The notes beneath the pieces are model-generated. The model made no database searches, was not told where the DNA came from, and saw nothing but the letters and a program-made list of their open reading frames with translations. From contig JACRAL010000004.1 of the NCBI GenBank assembly GCA_016213435.1, forward strand, positions 1-64,000: DNA of 64,000 nt, written 5' to 3'. This DNA comes from Bacteroidota bacterium (GTDB taxonomy: Bacteria; Bacteroidota; Bacteroidia; Palsa-948). Below, piece after piece: positions 4,938-55,587 of the stretch; position 1 is the stretch's first letter; each line of letters begins with the position of its first letter. The position numbers were made by a program, and so were the translations under genes.

Positions 4938-6014
4938 ATGAATTTTCTGAGGTTTTTATTATTCCCAGCTGCGCTGTTATACGGCATAGGAATCTTTTTT
5001 CGAAACCTGCTGTATCAAATCGGTATTTTACCTGCTAAAGGATTTGACACAGGAATAATTGTAATCGGAAATCTATCAGTTGGAGGCACAGGAAAATCTC
5101 CAATGACAGAATATCTTATCCGTTTGTTAAAAGAAAAATTTCCTCTCGCTACGTTGAGCCGCGGATACAAGCGTCATACAACAGGATTTCTTTTAGCAGA
5201 AAAAGATTCCACATCGTTCCAGATCGGGGATGAACCTCTTCAGTTCAAGAAAAAATTCCCGGATATAATTGTTTCAGTGGATGAAAATCGAAAGCAGGGA
5301 ATAAAAAAACTTCTTTTGCAATTTCCTCAACTTAAAATAATTTTGCTGGACGATGCATTCCAGCACCGCAGAGTAAAACCCGGACTTTCCATTTTGCTTA
5401 CCGATTACAGTAAAATATTTTACGATGATTTTCTTCTGCCGGTTGGCTCATTGAGAGAATGGAGCGCGGGGAAAGGAAGAGCAGACATCATCATTGTTAC
5501 AAAATGCCCTGTCAATTTATCTCCGGTAGAAAAAAGGATCATCCTGAAAAATATTTCTCCGGAACCACATCAACATGTTTTTTTCTCGCATATAAAATAC
5601 GGAGAACCGATTACTTTATTCCCCTCTCCCTCGGGAGAGGGGTTAGGGATGAGGTCGACTGTTGTGCTGCTCACCGGAATCTCCAATCCAAAGCCATTAG
5701 AGGATTATCTCAAAGACAAAGTCAGCAATATCATTCCAATGCATTATCCCGATCACCACGAATACACAATTGTTGAAGCAAACAAAGCAGTTGAAACATT
5801 TAACAATATTGCTTCTTCAAATAAAGTAATCATCACTACGGAAAAAGACGCCATGCGTTTAGATAAACCGGGGCTTGTAGAAGTGCTTCATACCCTTCCT
5901 ATATATTACATTCCGATCGAAGTTTCTTTTGATGAAAAAGAAAAAACAGAATTTAATCAACTTATAACCGATTATGCCTTTAGAACAAATCAAAAGCACA
6001 GCGGAGTTCATTAA
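4938..6014 (+). CDS. lpxK: Tetraacyldisaccharide 4'-kinase
   Basis: GNLSVGGTGKSPMTEYL P-loop, LSRGYKR, DDAFQHR. Contains an in-frame repeat-derived peptide at 5621-5654. Confidence 0.95.
   Translation: MNFLRFLLFPAALLYGIGIFFRNLLYQIGILPAKGFDTGIIVIGNLSVGGTGKSPMTEYLIRLLKEKFPLATLSRGYKRHTTGFLLAEKDSTSFQIGDEPLQFKKKFPDIIVSVDENRKQGIKKLLLQFPQLKIILLDDAFQHRRVKPGLSILLTDYSKIFYDDFLLPVGSLREWSAGKGRADIIIVTKCPVNLSPVEKRIILKNISPEPHQHVFFSHIKYGEPITLFPSPSGEGLGMRSTVVLLTGISNPKPLEDYLKDKVSNIIPMHYPDHHEYTIVEANKAVETFNNIASSNKVIITTEKDAMRLDKPGLVEVLHTLPIYYIPIEVSFDEKEKTEFNQLITDYAFRTNQKHSGVH
5621..5654 (+). repeat. Palindromic repeat (CCCCTCTCCC-tc-GGGAGAGGGG + ttagggatgagg) in frame within lpxK
   Basis: Perfect 10-bp stem; encodes FPSPSGEGLGMR. 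Same family as 14554-14590, 17298-17334 and 46809-46844. Confidence 0.88.
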
Positions 6015-13264: not shown

Positions 13265-15304
13265 CTAAAATAATCCCTCAAGCAAAGATTCATCCACCAA
13301 ATTCGGCAAAGTTACTTTCAGATTTTTGCTTCGCTTCATTTCGCGTTCAATGGCGAAAATTGCTTCTTTGTTTCGCGCCCAGCTTCTGCGTGCGATGCCG
13401 TTATTCACATCCCAGAAAAGCATGGACTTTAATCTTCTATCACAATCTTTTGAACCGTCCAGCACCATTCCGAATCCTCCGTTGATCACTTCGCCCCAGC
13501 CGACACCTCCACCGTTGTGAAGCGAGATCCAGGTTGCTCCGCGAAATCCATCACCGACAAAATTCTGCACTGCCATGTCAGCCGTGAATTGTGAGCCGTC
13601 ATAAATATTCGAGGTTTCTCGGAAAGGAGAATCTGTTCCTGAAACATCGTGATGATCTCTTCCTAATACAACAGGAGCAGAAATTTTTTTCTCCTTGATG
13701 GCTTTGTTGAACGCTTCTGCAATTTTTGTTCTTCCTTCCGCATCAGCATATAAAATCCTCGCCTGGGAACCAACCACCAATTTATTTTTCTGCGCTTCTT
13801 TTATCCAGTGAATATTATCGGCAAGCTGTTGTTTTATTTCTTTCGGAGCTTTTTTGTAAATCTTCTCTAAAACTTTTGCAGCAATTTTATCTGTGGTTTC
13901 CAAGTCTTTGGGATTTGCAGAAGCGCATACCCATCGGAACGGACCGAAACCAAAATCAAAACACATGGGTCCCATGATGTCCTGGACATAGCTCGGATAG
14001 CGAAACTGTGTTAGTCGGGATTTAAAATCCCGACCAGCGAAAATATCAGCCCCAGCTCTCCCAGCCTCAAGAAGAAAAGCATTTCCATAATCGAAGAAAT
14101 ACATTCCTCTTTCAGTAAGTTTATTGATCGCATTTACCTGACGCACTAAACTTTTCTGTACTTCGATTTTAAATTGAACGGGATCTTCCGTCATCATCTT
14201 TTTCGCACTCTCAAAAGAAATTCCTGCGGGATAATATCCTCCGGAATAAGGATTATGAAGTGAAGTTTGGTCGGAACCTAATTCCACTTTTATATTTTTC
14301 TCCGCAAATTTTTCCCAGAGATCAACAATATTTCCCTGGTAGGCAATTGATACTGCTTCTTTTTTATTTCGTGCAATCTCAATTCTCTCTATGAGTTTAT
14401 CAAGATCAGAAAAAACTTCATCTACCCATCCCTGCGAGTGGCGTGTGTGAGTTGCTTTTGGATTTACTTCGGCAATAACAGCAATTGCTCCTGCTATAAC
14501 AGCAGCTTTTGGCTGCGCTCCACTCATTCCGCCAAGACCGGAGGAAATAAAAACCTCACCCCCGACCCCTCTCCCCAAGGAGAGGGGAGATTTTTTTCTG
14601 TGCATTCGGAGTGCATTCAATACTGTGATGGTTGTACCATGCACAATTCCCTGCGGACCGATGTACATGAAAGAACCGGCAGTCATTTGTCCATATTGAG
14701 TAACTCCCAGTGCGTTAAATTTTTCCCAGTCATCCGGCTTTGAATAATTCGGAATCATCATTCCGTTGGTAACAACAACGCGAGGCGCATCTTTGTGCGA
14801 TGGAAACAATCCCATCGGATGGCCGGAATACATAGCGAGCGTTTGCTCATCGCTCATCGTGGCAAGGTATTTCATCGTGAGCAGATACTGCGCCCAGTTC
14901 TGAAATACTGCACCATTTCCTCCATACGTAATGAGTTCATGTGGATGCTGCGCCACTGCATAATCCAGGTTATTGGACAGCATGTGCATGATGGCTCCCG
15001 CTTGTTTTGATCTGAACGGATACTCGTTGATCGGACGTGCATAAATTTTATAATCCGGACGAAAACGGTACATGTAAATTCTTCCGTACGTTTTTAATTC
15101 ATCAGCAAATTCCTTTGCGAGAATCGAATGGAATTTTTTCGGAAAATATCTGAGCGCATTTTTTATCGCTAGTTTTTTTTCTTCGGCAGATAAAATATCC
15201 TTTCGCTTTGGCGCATGATTCAGCGAAGCGTCAAATGGCTTTGGTGCCGGAAGTTTATCCGGGATTCCCTGCAGGATCAGTTTTTGAAATTCTTTAGTGG
15301 TCAT
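13265..15304 (-). CDS. hutU: Urocanate hydratase
   Basis: MMIPNYSKPDDWEKFNALGVTQYGQMTAGSFMYIGPQGIVHGTTITVLNA, ISSGLGGMSGAQPKA, FGFGPFRWVCAS. Confidence 0.94.
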   Translation of the reverse strand: MTTKEFQKLILQGIPDKLPAPKPFDASLNHAPKRKDILSAEEKKLAIKNALRYFPKKFHSILAKEFADELKTYGRIYMYRFRPDYKIYARPINEYPFRSKQAGAIMHMLSNNLDYAVAQHPHELITYGGNGAVFQNWAQYLLTMKYLATMSDEQTLAMYSGHPMGLFPSHKDAPRVVVTNGMMIPNYSKPDDWEKFNALGVTQYGQMTAGSFMYIGPQGIVHGTTITVLNALRMHRKKSPLSLGRGVGGEVFISSGLGGMSGAQPKAAVIAGAIAVIAEVNPKATHTRHSQGWVDEVFSDLDKLIERIEIARNKKEAVSIAYQGNIVDLWEKFAEKNIKVELGSDQTSLHNPYSGGYYPAGISFESAKKMMTEDPVQFKIEVQKSLVRQVNAINKLTERGMYFFDYGNAFLLEAGRAGADIFAGRDFKSRLTQFRYPSYVQDIMGPMCFDFGFGPFRWVCASANPKDLETTDKIAAKVLEKIYKKAPKEIKQQLADNIHWIKEAQKNKLVVGSQARILYADAEGRTKIAEAFNKAIKEKKISAPVVLGRDHHDVSGTDSPFRETSNIYDGSQFTADMAVQNFVGDGFRGATWISLHNGGGVGWGEVINGGFGMVLDGSKDCDRRLKSMLFWDVNNGIARRSWARNKEAIFAIEREMKRSKNLKVTLPNLVDESLLEGLF
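14014..14034. repeat. Palindrome GTCGGGATTTaAAATCCCGAC in frame in hutU
   Basis: Perfect 10-bp stem with 1-nt centre; minus-strand reading gives (A)GRDFKSRL. Confidence 0.75.
14554..14590 (-). repeat. Palindromic repeat TCTCCCCTCTCCttGGGGAGAGGGGtcgggggtgagg in frame in hutU
   Basis: Encodes SPLSLGRGVGGE; same family as the lpxK copy but in a different frame. Confidence 0.87.
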
Positions 15305-17006: not shown

Positions 17007-18074
17007 ATGAAAATTCCGCTACAGAAAATTTCAGATCCTGCAATTTCATCCTCAGGAGTAAATTTATTTGTTCTCAGATTGGATTTGACTCACCCACACA
17101 TCAGCGGAAATAAATGGTACAAACTGAAATATAATCTTGAAGAAATAAAAAAGCAAAAGATAAAAACCGTTCTCACGTTTGGCGGTGCCTATTCCAATCA
17201 CATTGCAGCAACGGCTGCGGCAGGAAAAAAATTCAAGTTTAAAACGATAGGAATAATTAGAGGGAATGAGTTAACCTCAGCACTGATCCCTCTCCGACCT
17301 CGCCCCCAGCCCCTCTCCCAAAGGAGAGGGGAGAAACAGCCGGTAAACCACACTTTGCAATTTGCAAAAGAATGCGGAATGAAATTGCATTTTGTTTCGC
17401 GTGCAGAATACAGAAAGAAACATACTCCTGAATTCCTCAGCACATTAACTCAGCAGTTTGGCAAAGTCTTTATTATTCCCGAAGGCGGCTCGAACGAGTT
17501 TGGCGTGAAAGGATGCACAGAAATTGTGAATGAAATAAATTCAAGCCCCTCTCTTATCTCCCCAAAGGGGAGAAGATTGAGCATGCAACCTGAGCTGCGC
17601 TCGCAACCTTCGGCTGTCCTTCGGGAAGGAAGGGATGGGCTCCCCTTTGATTTTATCTGCAGTGCCTGCGGAACCGGTGCAACGCTTGCAGGAATCATTC
17701 TTTCGCTCAAAAAAAATCAGCAGGCAATCGGATTTTCGGTTCTTCATGCTTCAGGTTATATAGAATCAGAGGTGAAGAAGTGGCTTGCTCGCTTTAAGAG
17801 TAATTCGTTTTCAAACTTTCACATTAATGAAGATTATGATTTCGGAAAATATGCAAAGCATACGCCTGAACTTTTAGAATTTATAAATTGTTTTGAAAAG
17901 CAAAACAACATTCCACTCGATCAGGTTTACACAGGCAAAATGATGTTCGGAATTTATGATCTCATAAAGAAAAATTATTTCCCAAAGGGAAGCACCGTCA
18001 TAGCGGTTCATACTGGCGGTTTGCAAGGGAAACTAAACCCCTCTCCGGCTCTCCCATCCAGGGAGAGAGATTAA
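17007..18074 (+). CDS. 1-aminocyclopropane-1-carboxylate deaminase/D-cysteine desulfhydrase-like PLP enzyme
   Basis: SGNKWYKLKYNL, TFGGAYSNHIAATAAAGK, CSACGTGATLAGI, HTGGLQG. Confidence 0.9.
   Translation: MKIPLQKISDPAISSSGVNLFVLRLDLTHPHISGNKWYKLKYNLEEIKKQKIKTVLTFGGAYSNHIAATAAAGKKFKFKTIGIIRGNELTSALIPLRPRPQPLSQRRGEKQPVNHTLQFAKECGMKLHFVSRAEYRKKHTPEFLSTLTQQFGKVFIIPEGGSNEFGVKGCTEIVNEINSSPSLISPKGRRLSMQPELRSQPSAVLREGRDGLPFDFICSACGTGATLAGIILSLKKNQQAIGFSVLHASGYIESEVKKWLARFKSNSFSNFHINEDYDFGKYAKHTPELLEFINCFEKQNNIPLDQVYTGKMMFGIYDLIKKNYFPKGSTVIAVHTGGLQGKLNPSPALPSRERD
17298..17334 (+). repeat. Palindromic repeat (cctcgcccccagCCCCTCTCCcaaaGGAGAGGGGaga) in frame in the ACC-deaminase-like gene
   Basis: Same family as 14554-14590; encodes PRPQPLSQRRGE. 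Confidence 0.85.
17544..17648. repeat. Composite repeat insertion in frame in the ACC-deaminase-like gene
   Basis: Encodes SSPSLISPKGRRLSMQPELRSQPSAVLREGRDGLP between NEIN and FDFICSACGTG. Shares GAGCTGCGCT..CAACCTTC with 10616-10635 (reverse complement). Confidence 0.7.
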
Positions 18075-35610: not shown

Positions 35611-35777
35611 GAGTGTACGACACTCTTTTTCGAGTGCAGATGCTTGTATTAACTCTCCCCCTTGAAAAGGGGGAGTCCGGCAGGAGAGGGGGATTGAGTT
35701 TAACCACCCCTAACCCCTCCTTTGAAAGGAGGGGAGCTAACAGCCAAATATCCAAGCCAATTAAAATGTCGTGCACT
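35611..35777. mobile_element. Candidate MITE-like element with 9-bp direct flanks
   Basis: TIR AGTGTACGACAC (35612-35623) / ATGTCGTGCACT (35766-35777), 10/12; flanked by AATTCTTCT at 35602-35610 and 35778-35786; internal G/C palindromes. Confidence 0.55.
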
Positions 35778-45733: not shown

Positions 45734-47200
45734 TTATTTTCTGATCAGTTTTGCAACACTTTCTACATGCGCTGTATGCGGAAACATATCTACGGGTTGC
45801 ACTTTTTCCACAAAGTACTGCTCGCTCATCAAAGCGATGTCCCGCGCCTGCGTGGCAGGATTGCAACTCACATAAATTATTTTTTCAGGAGATATCTCGA
45901 GTATTTTTTTCACCACATCTTCGTGCATGCCTGCGCGCGGAGGATCTGTGATAATTACATCCGGCTTGCCGTGTGCAGAAATAAACTCGTTATTCAGAAC
46001 ATCCTTAATATCTCCGGCAAAAAATTCTGTGTTGGAAATATTATTTATCTCTGAATTTATTTTTGCATCCTCAATAGCTGCGTTGATGTATTCAATACCG
46101 ATCACTTTTTTAGCTTTCCCTGCTACGAAATTTGCAATAGTGCCCGTTCCCGTGTACAGATCATAAACAACTTCATTTCCCTTCAATCCCGCAAAATCAC
46201 GGGTTACCTTATATAACTCAAGCGCCTGAGCTGAATTGGTCTGAAAAAAAGATTTTGGACTGATGCGAAATTTTAGTTCTTCCATTTCTTCATGTATGCA
46301 GTCTTCTCCGCTAAACGGTTTTACTTCCTGATCAAAGATGCTGTCGTTCTTTTTCGAATTAATAAGGTATTGCAAAGAAGTTATCTGTGTAAATTTTCCT
46401 GAAAGATGTTTTAGTAATTTTTCTCTTTCAGATTTATCTTCGTAAAAAAACACCATCACCACCATCCATTCACCGGTGGAGGTACTACGAATAATCAGGT
46501 TGCGGAGAAATCCATTTTGTTTCCGGATGTCAAAAAAAGTCAGATTGTTTTCGATGGCATATTTTCTTACTTCAAGACGAATGCTGTTGGAAGGCTCTTC
46601 CTGCAAATGACATTCTGCAATATCAAGCACCTTGTCAAAAAGCTTTGGAATGTGAAATCCGAGAGCATAAGCAGCGCTGCCCAGATTTTCCCCGATGTTG
46701 AGCGTTTGAAAATCTTCTTTCGTCAGCCACTTTTTATTTGAAAATGTAAATTCCAGTTTATTGCGGTAGTGAAAAATAGTTTTTGATGGAATGATAGGGA
46801 GGAACTGGCTCCCCTCTCCTGTGGGAGAGGGGTTGGGGGTGAGGCGACCAATTCTTGTTAATGCATCCACCACATATTTCTGCTTGAAAAATAATTGTGC
46901 ATCGTATTTCATGTTCTGCCATTTGCATCCTCCGCAAATTCCAAAATGCCGGCAGACCGGTTCGGTTCTTTTTTCAGAAAGCTTTTGGTATTGAATTACT
47001 TTCCCTTCCCGATAATTTCTTTTCTTTTGTGTGATCTGAATAGTCACCACATCGCCCGGAATTGCAAGATCGATAAAACATACAATACTATTTTTCCCAG
47101 AAGATGCATCCGCACCCTGGTGAGGAATACGACCAATGCCTTTTCCTTCCGTGCTTATGTCGGTGATCTCAATGTTTTCAAATGTCTGAATCGCTTTCAT
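45734..47200 (-). CDS. rlmD: 23S rRNA (uracil-C5)-methyltransferase (RlmD/RumA family)
   Basis: CGGCKWQNMKYDAQL, FFQTNSAQALELY, YDLYTGTGTIA, DPPRAGMH, YVSCNPATQARD. Confidence 0.94.
   Translation of the reverse strand: MKAIQTFENIEITDISTEGKGIGRIPHQGADASSGKNSIVCFIDLAIPGDVVTIQITQKKRNYREGKVIQYQKLSEKRTEPVCRHFGICGGCKWQNMKYDAQLFFKQKYVVDALTRIGRLTPNPSPTGEGSQFLPIIPSKTIFHYRNKLEFTFSNKKWLTKEDFQTLNIGENLGSAAYALGFHIPKLFDKVLDIAECHLQEEPSNSIRLEVRKYAIENNLTFFDIRKQNGFLRNLIIRSTSTGEWMVVMVFFYEDKSEREKLLKHLSGKFTQITSLQYLINSKKNDSIFDQEVKPFSGEDCIHEEMEELKFRISPKSFFQTNSAQALELYKVTRDFAGLKGNEVVYDLYTGTGTIANFVAGKAKKVIGIEYINAAIEDAKINSEINNISNTEFFAGDIKDVLNNEFISAHGKPDVIITDPPRAGMHEDVVKKILEISPEKIIYVSCNPATQARDIALMSEQYFVEKVQPVDMFPHTAHVESVAKLIRK
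46809..46844. repeat. Palindromic repeat CTCCCCTCTCCtgtgGGAGAGGGGttgggggtgagg in frame in rlmD
   Basis: Minus-strand reading gives RLTPNPSPTGEGS; same family as 5621-5654 in the opposite coding orientation. Confidence 0.88.
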
Positions 47201-52608: not shown

Positions 52609-55587
52609 CTACATCACAATATTTACTATCCTTTTTGGTACAACGATCACTTTCTTGGGTTGTTTTCCTTCTAAGAATTTTTTTGATTGCTCATTGGCAA
52701 GCACTTCCTTTTCAATTTCTGCCGGAGTTAAACTGAGCGACAGTTCCAAATTGAAACGCATTTTTCCGTTGAAGGAAATAGGATAAGAATAAGAATCATC
52801 CGCCATCAGTGCTTCGTTGTATTGAGGGAAAGTTGCGAAGGTGATACTTTTCTCATTTCCTAATTTATACCATAATTCTTCTGCAATGTGTGGAGCGAAT
52901 GAAGAAAGTAAAATCACGAGCGGCTCAAGAATCGCACGCTTGTTGCATTTTAATTCTGTGAGCTCGTTTGTGCAGATCATGAAAGCGCTCACCGAAGTGT
53001 TGAAGGAATAATTATCAATATCCTGTTGGATCTTTTTGATGGTCTTGTGAAGGATTTTGAGTTCGGGTTTTGTAGGTTCGTCCTCAGAAACAAAAAAAGC
53101 CCCACCTAAATCCTCCCCGTTAGAGAGGACTTTCAGTTCGTTCTCCCTCCCTTTGGGAGGGTTGGGGTGGGCTAATCTCCAGAACTTATTCAGAAAACCA
53201 AAAACCCCGCTGATGCCGTTTGTATTCCATGGTTTGCTTTGCTCCAGCGGACCGAGGAACATTTCGTACAAACGCAAGGTGTCAGCGCCAAAATTTGTGC
53301 AGATGTCATCGGGAGTGACGACATTGTATTTTGACTTGGACATTTTTTCGACTTCTCTTTTTACGAGAAAAGGCGGTCTGGTTTTTTCTGGTGTTAATAC
53401 TCCATTGTCATTATAATAACCCCCTTTAAAATAATAACCTTCTTTAAGAATAAAAACCGAATCAGAATATTCGTTACCAAACTGTGATTCTATAAATAAA
53501 TCAATATTTAATTTTTCTTCATCAACAAATTCAATAGGGCTATTTCTTTCGAAAACAGAAAAGGGTTCTATTCCGGTTGGAACTTTATAAGGATATACGT
53601 CTGCACTACTTATAAATCTTTGAACGTCATTAAATGTTATTTGTCTTGGGTAATCACTGTTATTTAAACTTGGTCCCATCCAATTATTTGACATAGAAAC
53701 ACCACTACTATTTATTCCTCCAATAAATATTTTTGCACTCATTCCTTGAATCATCCCCTGATTGATCAGCTTCTTTGCAGGTTCAATTACAGGGATCAAA
53801 CCGAGGTCAAATAAAAATTTTGTCCAGAAGCGCATGTAAAGCAAATGTCCGGTGGCGTGCTCGGCACCGCCAATGTAGAGGTCAACATCTTTCCAGTAAT
53901 TCAGCGCATCCTTTCCGGCAAATTCATTTTTGTTCTGCGGATCCATGTAGCGCAAATAATACCAGCTGCTTCCTGCCCAACCCGGCATCGTAGTTTTCTC
54001 GTACTCATATTTTCCCTGATGTTTCCAGTTCTTCGCGCGCGCCAAAGGCGGTTCACCGTCTTCGGTAGGTAAATATTTATCTACTTCAGGAAGCACCAGT
54101 GGAAGTTCGTTCTCTTCCATCACGTGGGGAATTCCATCCTTATAATAAACGGGAATTGGCTCGCCCCAGTAACGCTGTCTGCCGAAAATTGCATCGCGCA
54201 AACGGAATTGTGTTCTTCCAAAACCTAATCCTCTTTTTTCAATTTCCTGTATCGCACGTTTGATGGAATCTTTTACATCAAGCCCATTTAAAAAATCTGA
54301 ATTGATACATTTTCCTTCTTTCGCGTCCCACGCTTCTCTTTGAATATCCCATCCTTCGGGAGCGGAAACAACTTGTTTGATTTCCAGATCAAAATGTTTT
54401 GCAAAAGCATGGTCGCGTGAATCGTGAGCTGGCACAGCCATCACTGCGCCCGTTCCATAACCAGCTAGTACATAATCTCCAAGCCAAATTGGAATCCTAT
54501 TTTTTGTAAATGGATGAATACAAAACGCTCCAGTGTCAACTCCGGTAACATTTTTGACATCCGCCATGCGATCTCTTTCAGAACGGATTTTTACTTTTTC
54601 AATATAGGCATCAACTTCATTCTTCTTTTCCGAAGAACATATTTTTGTTGCTAATGGATGCTCAGGAGCAAGGACAAGAAAGGTTGCGCCAAAGATTGTA
54701 TCCGGACGTGTTGAGAAAACTGGAATATAAGATTGCTTTTCATTGTCAACATTGAAAGTAAGAGAAGCACCTTCTGATTTTCCAATCCAGTTGCGTTGCG
54801 CTTCTTTAATTGATTCGCTCCAGTCAATATTATCGAGATTGTTTAACAATCTGTTTGCATAAGCGGTAATGCGCAAACTCCATTGCGGCATGAGTTTTCT
54901 TTCTACCGGATACCCACCGCGCTCAGAAACACCGTCTTTCACTTCTTCATTCGCCAGAACGGTTCCAAGCTGCGGACACCAGTTTACCCAAGCTTCGCTT
55001 AAATAAGCTAAGCGATATTCCATCAGCACATCACTTTTCTCTTTCTCATTCAACTCATCCCATTTCTTTTCCAACTTTCCAACTTTGCCACTTTCTAACT
55101 TTTGAACTAAAGTATTTATTGATTCCGCTTTATCCGTTTCATGATTGTACCATGAATTAAAAAGTTTTATAAAAATCCACTGCGTCCATTTGTAATAGTT
55201 AGGATCGGAAGTGCGCACTTCCCGTTCCCAGTCGAATGAGAAACCAATTTTATCCATCTGCTCGCGGTAGCGGGCAATATTATCTTTAGTGGTTTTTTCA
55301 GGATGCTGTCCGGTTTGAATGGCGTATTGTTCTGCAGGAAGTCCAAAGGAATCATATCCCATCGGATGCAAAACGTTAAACCCTTTCAGCCTTTTGTAAC
55401 GTGAAACAATATCGGAAGCAATGTATCCCAGCGGATGCCCAACGTGCAAGCCGGCACCGGAAGGATATGGAAACATATCGAGCGCGTAATATTTCGGCTT
55501 GACAGATTTATTTTCAGCACGAAAAGTTTTGTTGTCTGCCCAGTGCTTTTGCCACTTTTTTTCTATTTCTCCGAATGGATATGCCAT
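52609..55587 (-). CDS. leuS: Leucyl-tRNA synthetase
   Basis: DMFPYPSGAGLHVGHPLGY, KMSKSKYNVV; contains a repeat-derived in-frame insertion at 53099-53172. Confidence 0.97.
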   Translation of the reverse strand: MAYPFGEIEKKWQKHWADNKTFRAENKSVKPKYYALDMFPYPSGAGLHVGHPLGYIASDIVSRYKRLKGFNVLHPMGYDSFGLPAEQYAIQTGQHPEKTTKDNIARYREQMDKIGFSFDWEREVRTSDPNYYKWTQWIFIKLFNSWYNHETDKAESINTLVQKLESGKVGKLEKKWDELNEKEKSDVLMEYRLAYLSEAWVNWCPQLGTVLANEEVKDGVSERGGYPVERKLMPQWSLRITAYANRLLNNLDNIDWSESIKEAQRNWIGKSEGASLTFNVDNEKQSYIPVFSTRPDTIFGATFLVLAPEHPLATKICSSEKKNEVDAYIEKVKIRSERDRMADVKNVTGVDTGAFCIHPFTKNRIPIWLGDYVLAGYGTGAVMAVPAHDSRDHAFAKHFDLEIKQVVSAPEGWDIQREAWDAKEGKCINSDFLNGLDVKDSIKRAIQEIEKRGLGFGRTQFRLRDAIFGRQRYWGEPIPVYYKDGIPHVMEENELPLVLPEVDKYLPTEDGEPPLARAKNWKHQGKYEYEKTTMPGWAGSSWYYLRYMDPQNKNEFAGKDALNYWKDVDLYIGGAEHATGHLLYMRFWTKFLFDLGLIPVIEPAKKLINQGMIQGMSAKIFIGGINSSGVSMSNNWMGPSLNNSDYPRQITFNDVQRFISSADVYPYKVPTGIEPFSVFERNSPIEFVDEEKLNIDLFIESQFGNEYSDSVFILKEGYYFKGGYYNDNGVLTPEKTRPPFLVKREVEKMSKSKYNVVTPDDICTNFGADTLRLYEMFLGPLEQSKPWNTNGISGVFGFLNKFWRLAHPNPPKGRENELKVLSNGEDLGGAFFVSEDEPTKPELKILHKTIKKIQQDIDNYSFNTSVSAFMICTNELTELKCNKRAILEPLVILLSSFAPHIAEELWYKLGNEKSITFATFPQYNEALMADDSYSYPISFNGKMRFNLELSLSLTPAEIEKEVLANEQSKKFLEGKQPKKVIVVPKRIVNIVM
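53099..53172. repeat. MITE-like palindromic repeat in frame in leuS
   Basis: gccccacctaaatcctccccgttagagagg...ccctccctttgggagggttggggtgggc with imperfect terminal inverted repeats; encodes AHPNPPKGRENELKVLSNGEDLGGA. Confidence 0.85.

Follow-up and report, generated by a model that had tools for sequence, protein, structure and literature searches.

The window, by which we mean the whole stretch of 64 kb that was analysed, is located on contig C3 of a groundwater Bacteroidetes genome (3.7 Mb, 97% complete). It contains an intact gene on the minus strand, coding for the 488-amino acid 23S rRNA (uracil-1939-C5)-methyltransferase RlmD, and a palindromic element of 37 nucleotides lies in frame in this gene. 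Three further copies of the element were found in the window, likewise in frame in genes. The features are the following:

45734..47200, minus strand: rlmD (TIGR00479 rumA/RlmD, 340 bits, cut-off 184; dN/dS 0.067 against the closest relative; AlphaFold mean pLDDT 89.4)
46809..46845, minus strand: 37-nt palindromic element in rlmD, in frame, encoding RLTPNPSPTGEGS, residues about 119-131
46811..46819, minus strand: hairpin arm of the rlmD copy, CCCCTCTCC on the plus strand
46824..46832, minus strand: hairpin arm of the rlmD copy, GGAGAGGGG on the plus strand
46836..46844, minus strand: third block, GGGGTGAGG on the plus strand, mirror image of the purine arm
4938..6011, plus strand: lpxK, host of the second copy (TIGR00682, 145 bits, cut-off 92)
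5621..5656, minus strand: element copy in lpxK, antisense to the gene, encoding FPSPSGEGLGMR
13268..15304, minus strand: hutU (urocanate hydratase), host of the third copy (TIGR01228, 408 bits, cut-off 375)
14551..14588, plus strand: element copy in hutU, antisense to the gene, encoding SPLSLGRGVGGEV
17007..18071, plus strand: D-cysteine desulfhydrase/ACC-deaminase-like gene, host of the fourth copy (TIGR01275, 135 bits, below the cut-off of 289)
17296..17332, plus strand: element copy in the D-cysteine desulfhydrase/ACC-deaminase-like gene, sense, encoding RPRPQPLSQRRGE

It was clearly established that the palindrome is not a product of chance, since its stem had four matches in the window against none expected (100 shuffles), and 59 perfect-stem copies were counted in the genome against none for a reversed control pattern. 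The preliminary description had recognized a palindromic family and had placed the peptide LTPNPSPTGEG between DALTRIG and FLPIIPSKTIFHYRNKLEF of an rRNA methyltransferase, with a second copy, in lpxK, read in the opposite element orientation. The sequence and the minus-strand translation agree with this placement, the gene being that of RlmD, and the lpxK copy (5621-5642) is indeed read in the opposite element orientation; the family therefore stands, and it is larger than the two copies pointed to, as there are four in the window and the pattern is genome-wide and genus-specific. Related but different short G/C-rich palindromes were also seen at 53155-53171 and 35683-35690 of the window (CCCACCCCAACCCTCCCAAAGGGAGGGAG; CCCCCTTTTCAAGGGGGAGAG type). 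No match to Rfam was obtained for the window.

On the plus strand the rlmD copy reads CTCCCCTCTCC-TGTG-GGAGAGGGGTTGGGGGTGAGGC (46809-46845), and folding of the DNA strand resulted in a hairpin of 9 bp closed by a loop of 4 nt. Where the congener G001 has five codons (KINTK), 14 are found here: RLTPNPSPTGEGSQ replaces KINTK with a net gain of 9 residues, thus the insertion was accompanied by a net replacement of target codons. In the AlphaFold model, calculated with 25 sequences, the insert block has a pLDDT of 70, and it is predicted to be a loop, with helix 99-116 before it and strand 131-133 after it. The rlmD copy consists of the palindrome only, without the DUF559 nuclease discussed below. 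An intein could be ruled out, since an insert of about 13 residues is far too short for a self-splicing domain. RlmD looks functional with the palindrome in its loop, nevertheless enzyme activity and translation of the insert have not been shown.

In 100 of 110 orthologue sequences, taken from two sets that have a few genomes in common, the GGCxWQ and YRNK motifs of RlmD are 41 residues apart, compared with 49 in this genome. Among the congeners the same spacing is 40 in G001 and G006, which are empty at this site, 43 in G005, 49 in G004, 48 in G003 and 53 in G002. The occupied versions (n=4) are unlike one another: the orientation in G004 is the same as here, in G003 it is the opposite (CCCCTTTCTCTGGAGAAAGGGACTAAGGGTGAG), and the site of G002 holds a related but different palindrome. 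In the orthologue alignment the insert was absent from all orthologues outside the genus, and inside the genus its sequence varied by species. Conservation of the insert across phyla, which the preliminary description had named as the observation that would refute it, was accordingly not seen.

Alignment of 51 copies gave the consensus CACCTCACCCCCAACCCCTCTCCCAAAGGAGAGGGGAG, in which the loop and two tail positions vary. Its reverse complement is composed of a pyrimidine block, a loop, a purine block, a short loop and a mirror purine block; this third block gives the element its direction and could in principle form G.GC, T.AT and A.AT triads. The mean third-strand triad fit of 75 copies was 0.98, compared with 0.73 for shuffled tails, and 63 of these copies had 8/8 triads. 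Judged from its letters, the element is built like the G/C-rich intrastrand triplex motif (TM) repeat and is nearly the same in sequence, while triplex formation was not shown. A genome from another family of the class (G031) has 84 copies with the same stem sequence and mostly A/T-rich loops, which may be a different repeat or terminators.

The copies of this genome were examined within 347 kb taken around the matches, and an ORF was accepted as host when it had at least 150 codons, with at least 25 codons on each side of the copy. By this criterion 49 of the 52 perfect copies are situated in spanning ORFs, compared with 76% of random positions in the genome, therefore coding sequence is not avoided. 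The other genus members gave 19/27 (G003), 13/20 (G005) and 3/5 (G004), which amounts to 84/104 over four members including this genome. Outside the genus the same repeat was mostly not in ORFs (G019 3/19, G020 1/12; 4/31 over these two other Bacteroidia), so the coding habit of the genus needs a further cause. According to a codon model (55 copies) the copies make use of each of the five reading frames in which the standard element has no stop, and the sixth, which carries TGA, is used twice, both times by copies with stop-avoiding sequence. A test for coding based on hexamers, which scored 55-58 copies as in frame, proved too strict and missed copies in genes such as PrmC, RsmG, RdgB and RsgA.

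The hosts identified above curated cut-offs include LpxK, HutU, RlmD, ValRS, a MoeB-type adenylyltransferase, MnmG, RsmG, RdgB, RsgA, N-acetylornithine carbamoyltransferase, ArgB, HemH, HemB, HemC, IleRS, AcsA, MiaB, AlaRS, PrmC and FtsY; Ffh, AspRS and a SufS/IscS-type desulfurase are also hosts (named by eye from sequence context). The host genes are under strong purifying selection: the median dN/dS of 24 of them against G001 was 0.064 (RlmD 0.067), at a dS of about 1. An assembly or frameshift artefact is unlikely, because many unrelated hosts have kept an intact, in-frame coding sequence and evolve under purifying selection.

Of the four genomes compared, G001 and the present one are sisters (18 genes, 5556 residues; 160 informative sites versus 29 and 28); G001 has one perfect copy and is empty at nearly all aligned insertion sites. 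Since G001 also equals G006, the outgroup by the RlmD tree, in length at most aligned sites, the empty state is most likely ancestral. The insertion sites are shared with other congeners far more than at random: G003 carries an insertion at 20 of 35 sites of this genome (random mean 1.4, maximum 6 in 2000), and G002 does so at 12 of 30 (random mean 1.1, maximum 6). It should be added that the controls were random positions and not loops only, and a preference for loops would raise the random expectation. At the AspRS site there is DLTPNPSPKGEGS here, DLTPSPSPQGEGS in G002 and DLSSPLSSGRGDGG, in the opposite orientation, in G003, and MiaB has a TM-type element here versus an A/T-rich palindrome, in frame, in G006. 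In ValRS, LVNEDN is common to this genome and G003, and some shared sites like this one may have been inherited or recombined, not independently hit. Long gene-conversion tracts were rejected as the origin of the shared sites, as informative sites shared by this genome and G003 were only mildly in excess near the insertions (41/128 within 10 codons versus 456/1969 beyond 100 codons).

Among 60 relatives DUF559 was present in 21/21 genomes with the palindrome versus 17/39 without it (Fisher 4e-6; Spearman 0.72), and outside the genus in 14/14 palindrome genomes versus the same 17/39 (1e-4), both uncorrected for phylogeny. The association is also positional: the palindrome occurs within 250 nt of 25 of the 49 DUF559 loci, on both sides in 16 of them, compared with 33/1054 control windows (3%). 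The four DUF559 loci in this genome all lacked a close palindrome match within 250 nt, and G001 has two DUF559 genes and only one perfect palindrome. At the AcsA site of G002 a 166-residue in-frame insert is a DUF559 domain (108 bits, cut-off 20.6) between palindrome-derived peptides; the same site carries a solo palindrome in this genome and in G004 and is empty in G001, G003 and G006. Similar hairpins bracket DUF559 in three phyla, including cyanobacterial and alphaproteobacterial plasmids. An ORF of 1622 residues on a Pseudanabaena plasmid contains DUF559 at codons 380-476, with one palindrome pair before it (326/341) and another after it (486/510), and palindrome pairs bracket DUF559 on a Sphingomonas plasmid as well; three other plasmid DUF559 genes are without such a palindrome. 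DUF559 proteins have been described as VSR-like or EDxHD homing-type nucleases (PMC12907096, PMC9403480), and in our literature search, which mostly did not reach subscription papers, no paper linking DUF559 with these palindromes was found. The DUF559 nuclease is the best candidate for the driver of hairpin spread, nevertheless the association is correlational, and neither mobilisation nor an action of DUF559 on the palindromes was shown.

Altogether 23 of the 49 DUF559 loci are inside ORFs of at least 300 residues, where the host names were assigned by eye from the flanking sequence. DUF559 was observed in frame in a RecJ-like gene of this genome (L550, G000 C174:32400-37800), at the same place in G001 and G003, and in a MutS-like gene (L548, G000 C167:7000-12400), also in G003. 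TsaD-, TsaB- and Sua5/YrdC-like genes carry it in frame as well (L551, L555 and L556 in G002, L560 in G003), and three genes of the t6A tRNA pathway, to judge from their likeness to TsaD, TsaB and Sua5/YrdC, have it in the single genome G002. LeuRS-like genes of several Bacteroidia (L522, L524, L530, L535) contain DUF559 in frame at about the same site across several genera, and a MetH-like gene is a host in another relative.

We consider it likely that RlmD contains a short palindrome of the TM type, a solo insert that its loop tolerates, and that copies of this palindrome are mobile and linked to DUF559. The in-frame position, the empty sites in relatives, the multiplicity, the purifying selection on the hosts, the reuse of sites and the association with DUF559 were all observed, while mobility is inferred. 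The palindrome might instead be a REP element moved on single-stranded DNA by a RAYT (REP-associated tyrosine transposase): a RAYT-like gene is present here in two copies and scores 98 bits against an NCBIfam RAYT cut-off of 80, and in seven genus members the counts of Pfam Y1 transposases roughly track those of the palindrome, G001, with its one perfect copy, having none. However, both RAYT loci of this genome lack flanking copies of the element, the palindromes that flank the RAYT-like genes of G003 and G005 are different ones, rich in A/T, the element has no GTAG or CGTC tag such as REPs carry, and the right palindromes often flank DUF559 genes, not RAYT genes. A REP origin is hence unlikely in our judgement, and RAYT was discarded as the mover, the gene being present but unflanked by the element. 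As for these loci themselves, the two genes of this genome (L309 and L310, G000 C124 and C19) are of the NF047646 type, one with a changed C-terminus, and the window palindrome does not flank them; the A/T-rich flanks in G003 and G005 (L306, L307) are AGACCTGCAAGGTTT..AAACCTTGCAGGTCT and ATACTTCAAAAGTT..AACTTTTGAAGTAT, and the A/T-rich palindrome in MiaB of G006 is similar.

That the inserts are largely one ancestral set of the genus, lost, replaced or recombined in some species, and not recent mobile copies, could be supported by the similar peptides in the same orientation that HemB, AspRS and HemC have in this genome and in G002 or G003, and by the non-element flanking residues of ValRS common to this genome and G003. 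We hold this to be quite improbable: the sister G001 has outgroup-like residues where the insertion replaced codons, so loss would need to restore the replaced codons; the orientation of the element differs at RlmD, AspRS and other sites; near-perfect stems are kept although the hosts have diverged to a dS of about 1; and, as given above, the sharing with G003 near the sites is only mildly in excess. An adaptive role, i.e. selection for a regulatory or structural function as triplex DNA, mRNA hairpin or peptide in an element that is coding by chance, would be in line with the lack of avoidance of coding sequence (49/52 copies versus 76% of random positions) and with the reuse of the same sites across species. 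Nevertheless, at one and the same site the peptide sequence, the frame and the orientation vary between species, the hosts share no common function, and G001 lives without nearly all of the inserts, which leaves selection for the element with very little probability.

In the explanation that we favour, a mobile palindrome of the TM type, the element would have entered a surface loop of RlmD, replacing a few target codons on balance with the frame kept. Its Pro/Gly/Ser/Glu-rich peptide would occupy the turn and the enzyme would fold around it, and for this reason the insert would be tolerated. Copies would have spread genome-wide, the survivors being those that keep the frame in permissive loops, and the same loops would have been hit repeatedly across species. 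The palindrome is thus inferred to be mobile and non-autonomous, and no transposition was observed. We propose only tentatively that it is the non-autonomous end-piece of an element built as palindrome - DUF559 nuclease - palindrome, in which the VSR-like nuclease would give mobility. A conjecture of similar standing is that of a class extending across phyla, in which DUF559 with bracketing TM palindromes would home in frame into the loops of conserved proteins, without being spliced out as an intein or intron, and leave solos such as that of RlmD; the widespread orphan TM repeats would then be its non-autonomous remains. The near-exclusive location in proteins within one genus, with different palindromes in the same loops, amounts to a natural experiment on insertion-tolerant protein loops, and the link to DUF559 suggests how this orphan repeat might be moved, in a form that can be tested, and what a large protein family of unknown function may do.

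Compared with the known systems, the element is nearest to the TM repeat (TMECO), with which it has in common the three-block architecture, the many copies per genome and a near-identical consensus (CCCTCTCCCTGTGGGAGAGGGCCGGGGTGAGGGC in TMECO, CCCCTCTCCTGTGGGAGAGGGGTTGGGGGTGAGG here; the 51-copy consensus was compared with the TMECO table by eye). All 23 copies in E. coli MG1655 are intergenic (Holder et al. 2015, PMC4666352), whereas 49/52 are in ORFs and in frame here; it should be noted that the intergenic position is a described property of the repeat and not its definition. Holder et al. 2015 reported no link to mobile elements (PMC4666352), in contrast to the statistical and positional link to DUF559 found here. 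Homing endonucleases of the EDxHD/VSR-like kind can also be in frame in host genes, as DUF559 is (PMC9403480, PMC12907096), but here DUF559, where bracketed (16 of 49 loci), has palindromes around it and is not carried by inteins as far as we have looked, and solo palindromes without the nuclease dominate.

According to a review (PMC10969869) of the work of Ogata et al. (2000, 2002), the Rickettsia palindromic elements (RPE) are likewise palindromic, apparently selfish DNA in frame in many unrelated core proteins, but they are about 150 bp long and belong to obligate intracellular Rickettsia, while the present element has 37 nt and occurs in a genus of environmental Bacteroidetes MAGs; reuse of the same sites across species, as seen here, is a further difference. 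Short palindromes within genes are also known from the intragenic GTAG/CGTC REPs of several bacteria, including recB of two Xanthomonas species with different REPs at about the same site (PMC3733652). However, REP families are mostly intergenic and GTAG- or CGTC-tagged, whereas the element described here is untagged, with a consensus that starts with CACCTCACC and ends with GGGGAG, and it reuses sites across many genes. Palindromes in proteins are therefore already known in general, from the RPE and the intragenic REPs (PMC3733652); new are the scale, the almost complete confinement to coding sequence of a repeat that had been known from intergenic DNA, the reuse of sites in many genes, and the association, so far correlational, with DUF559.
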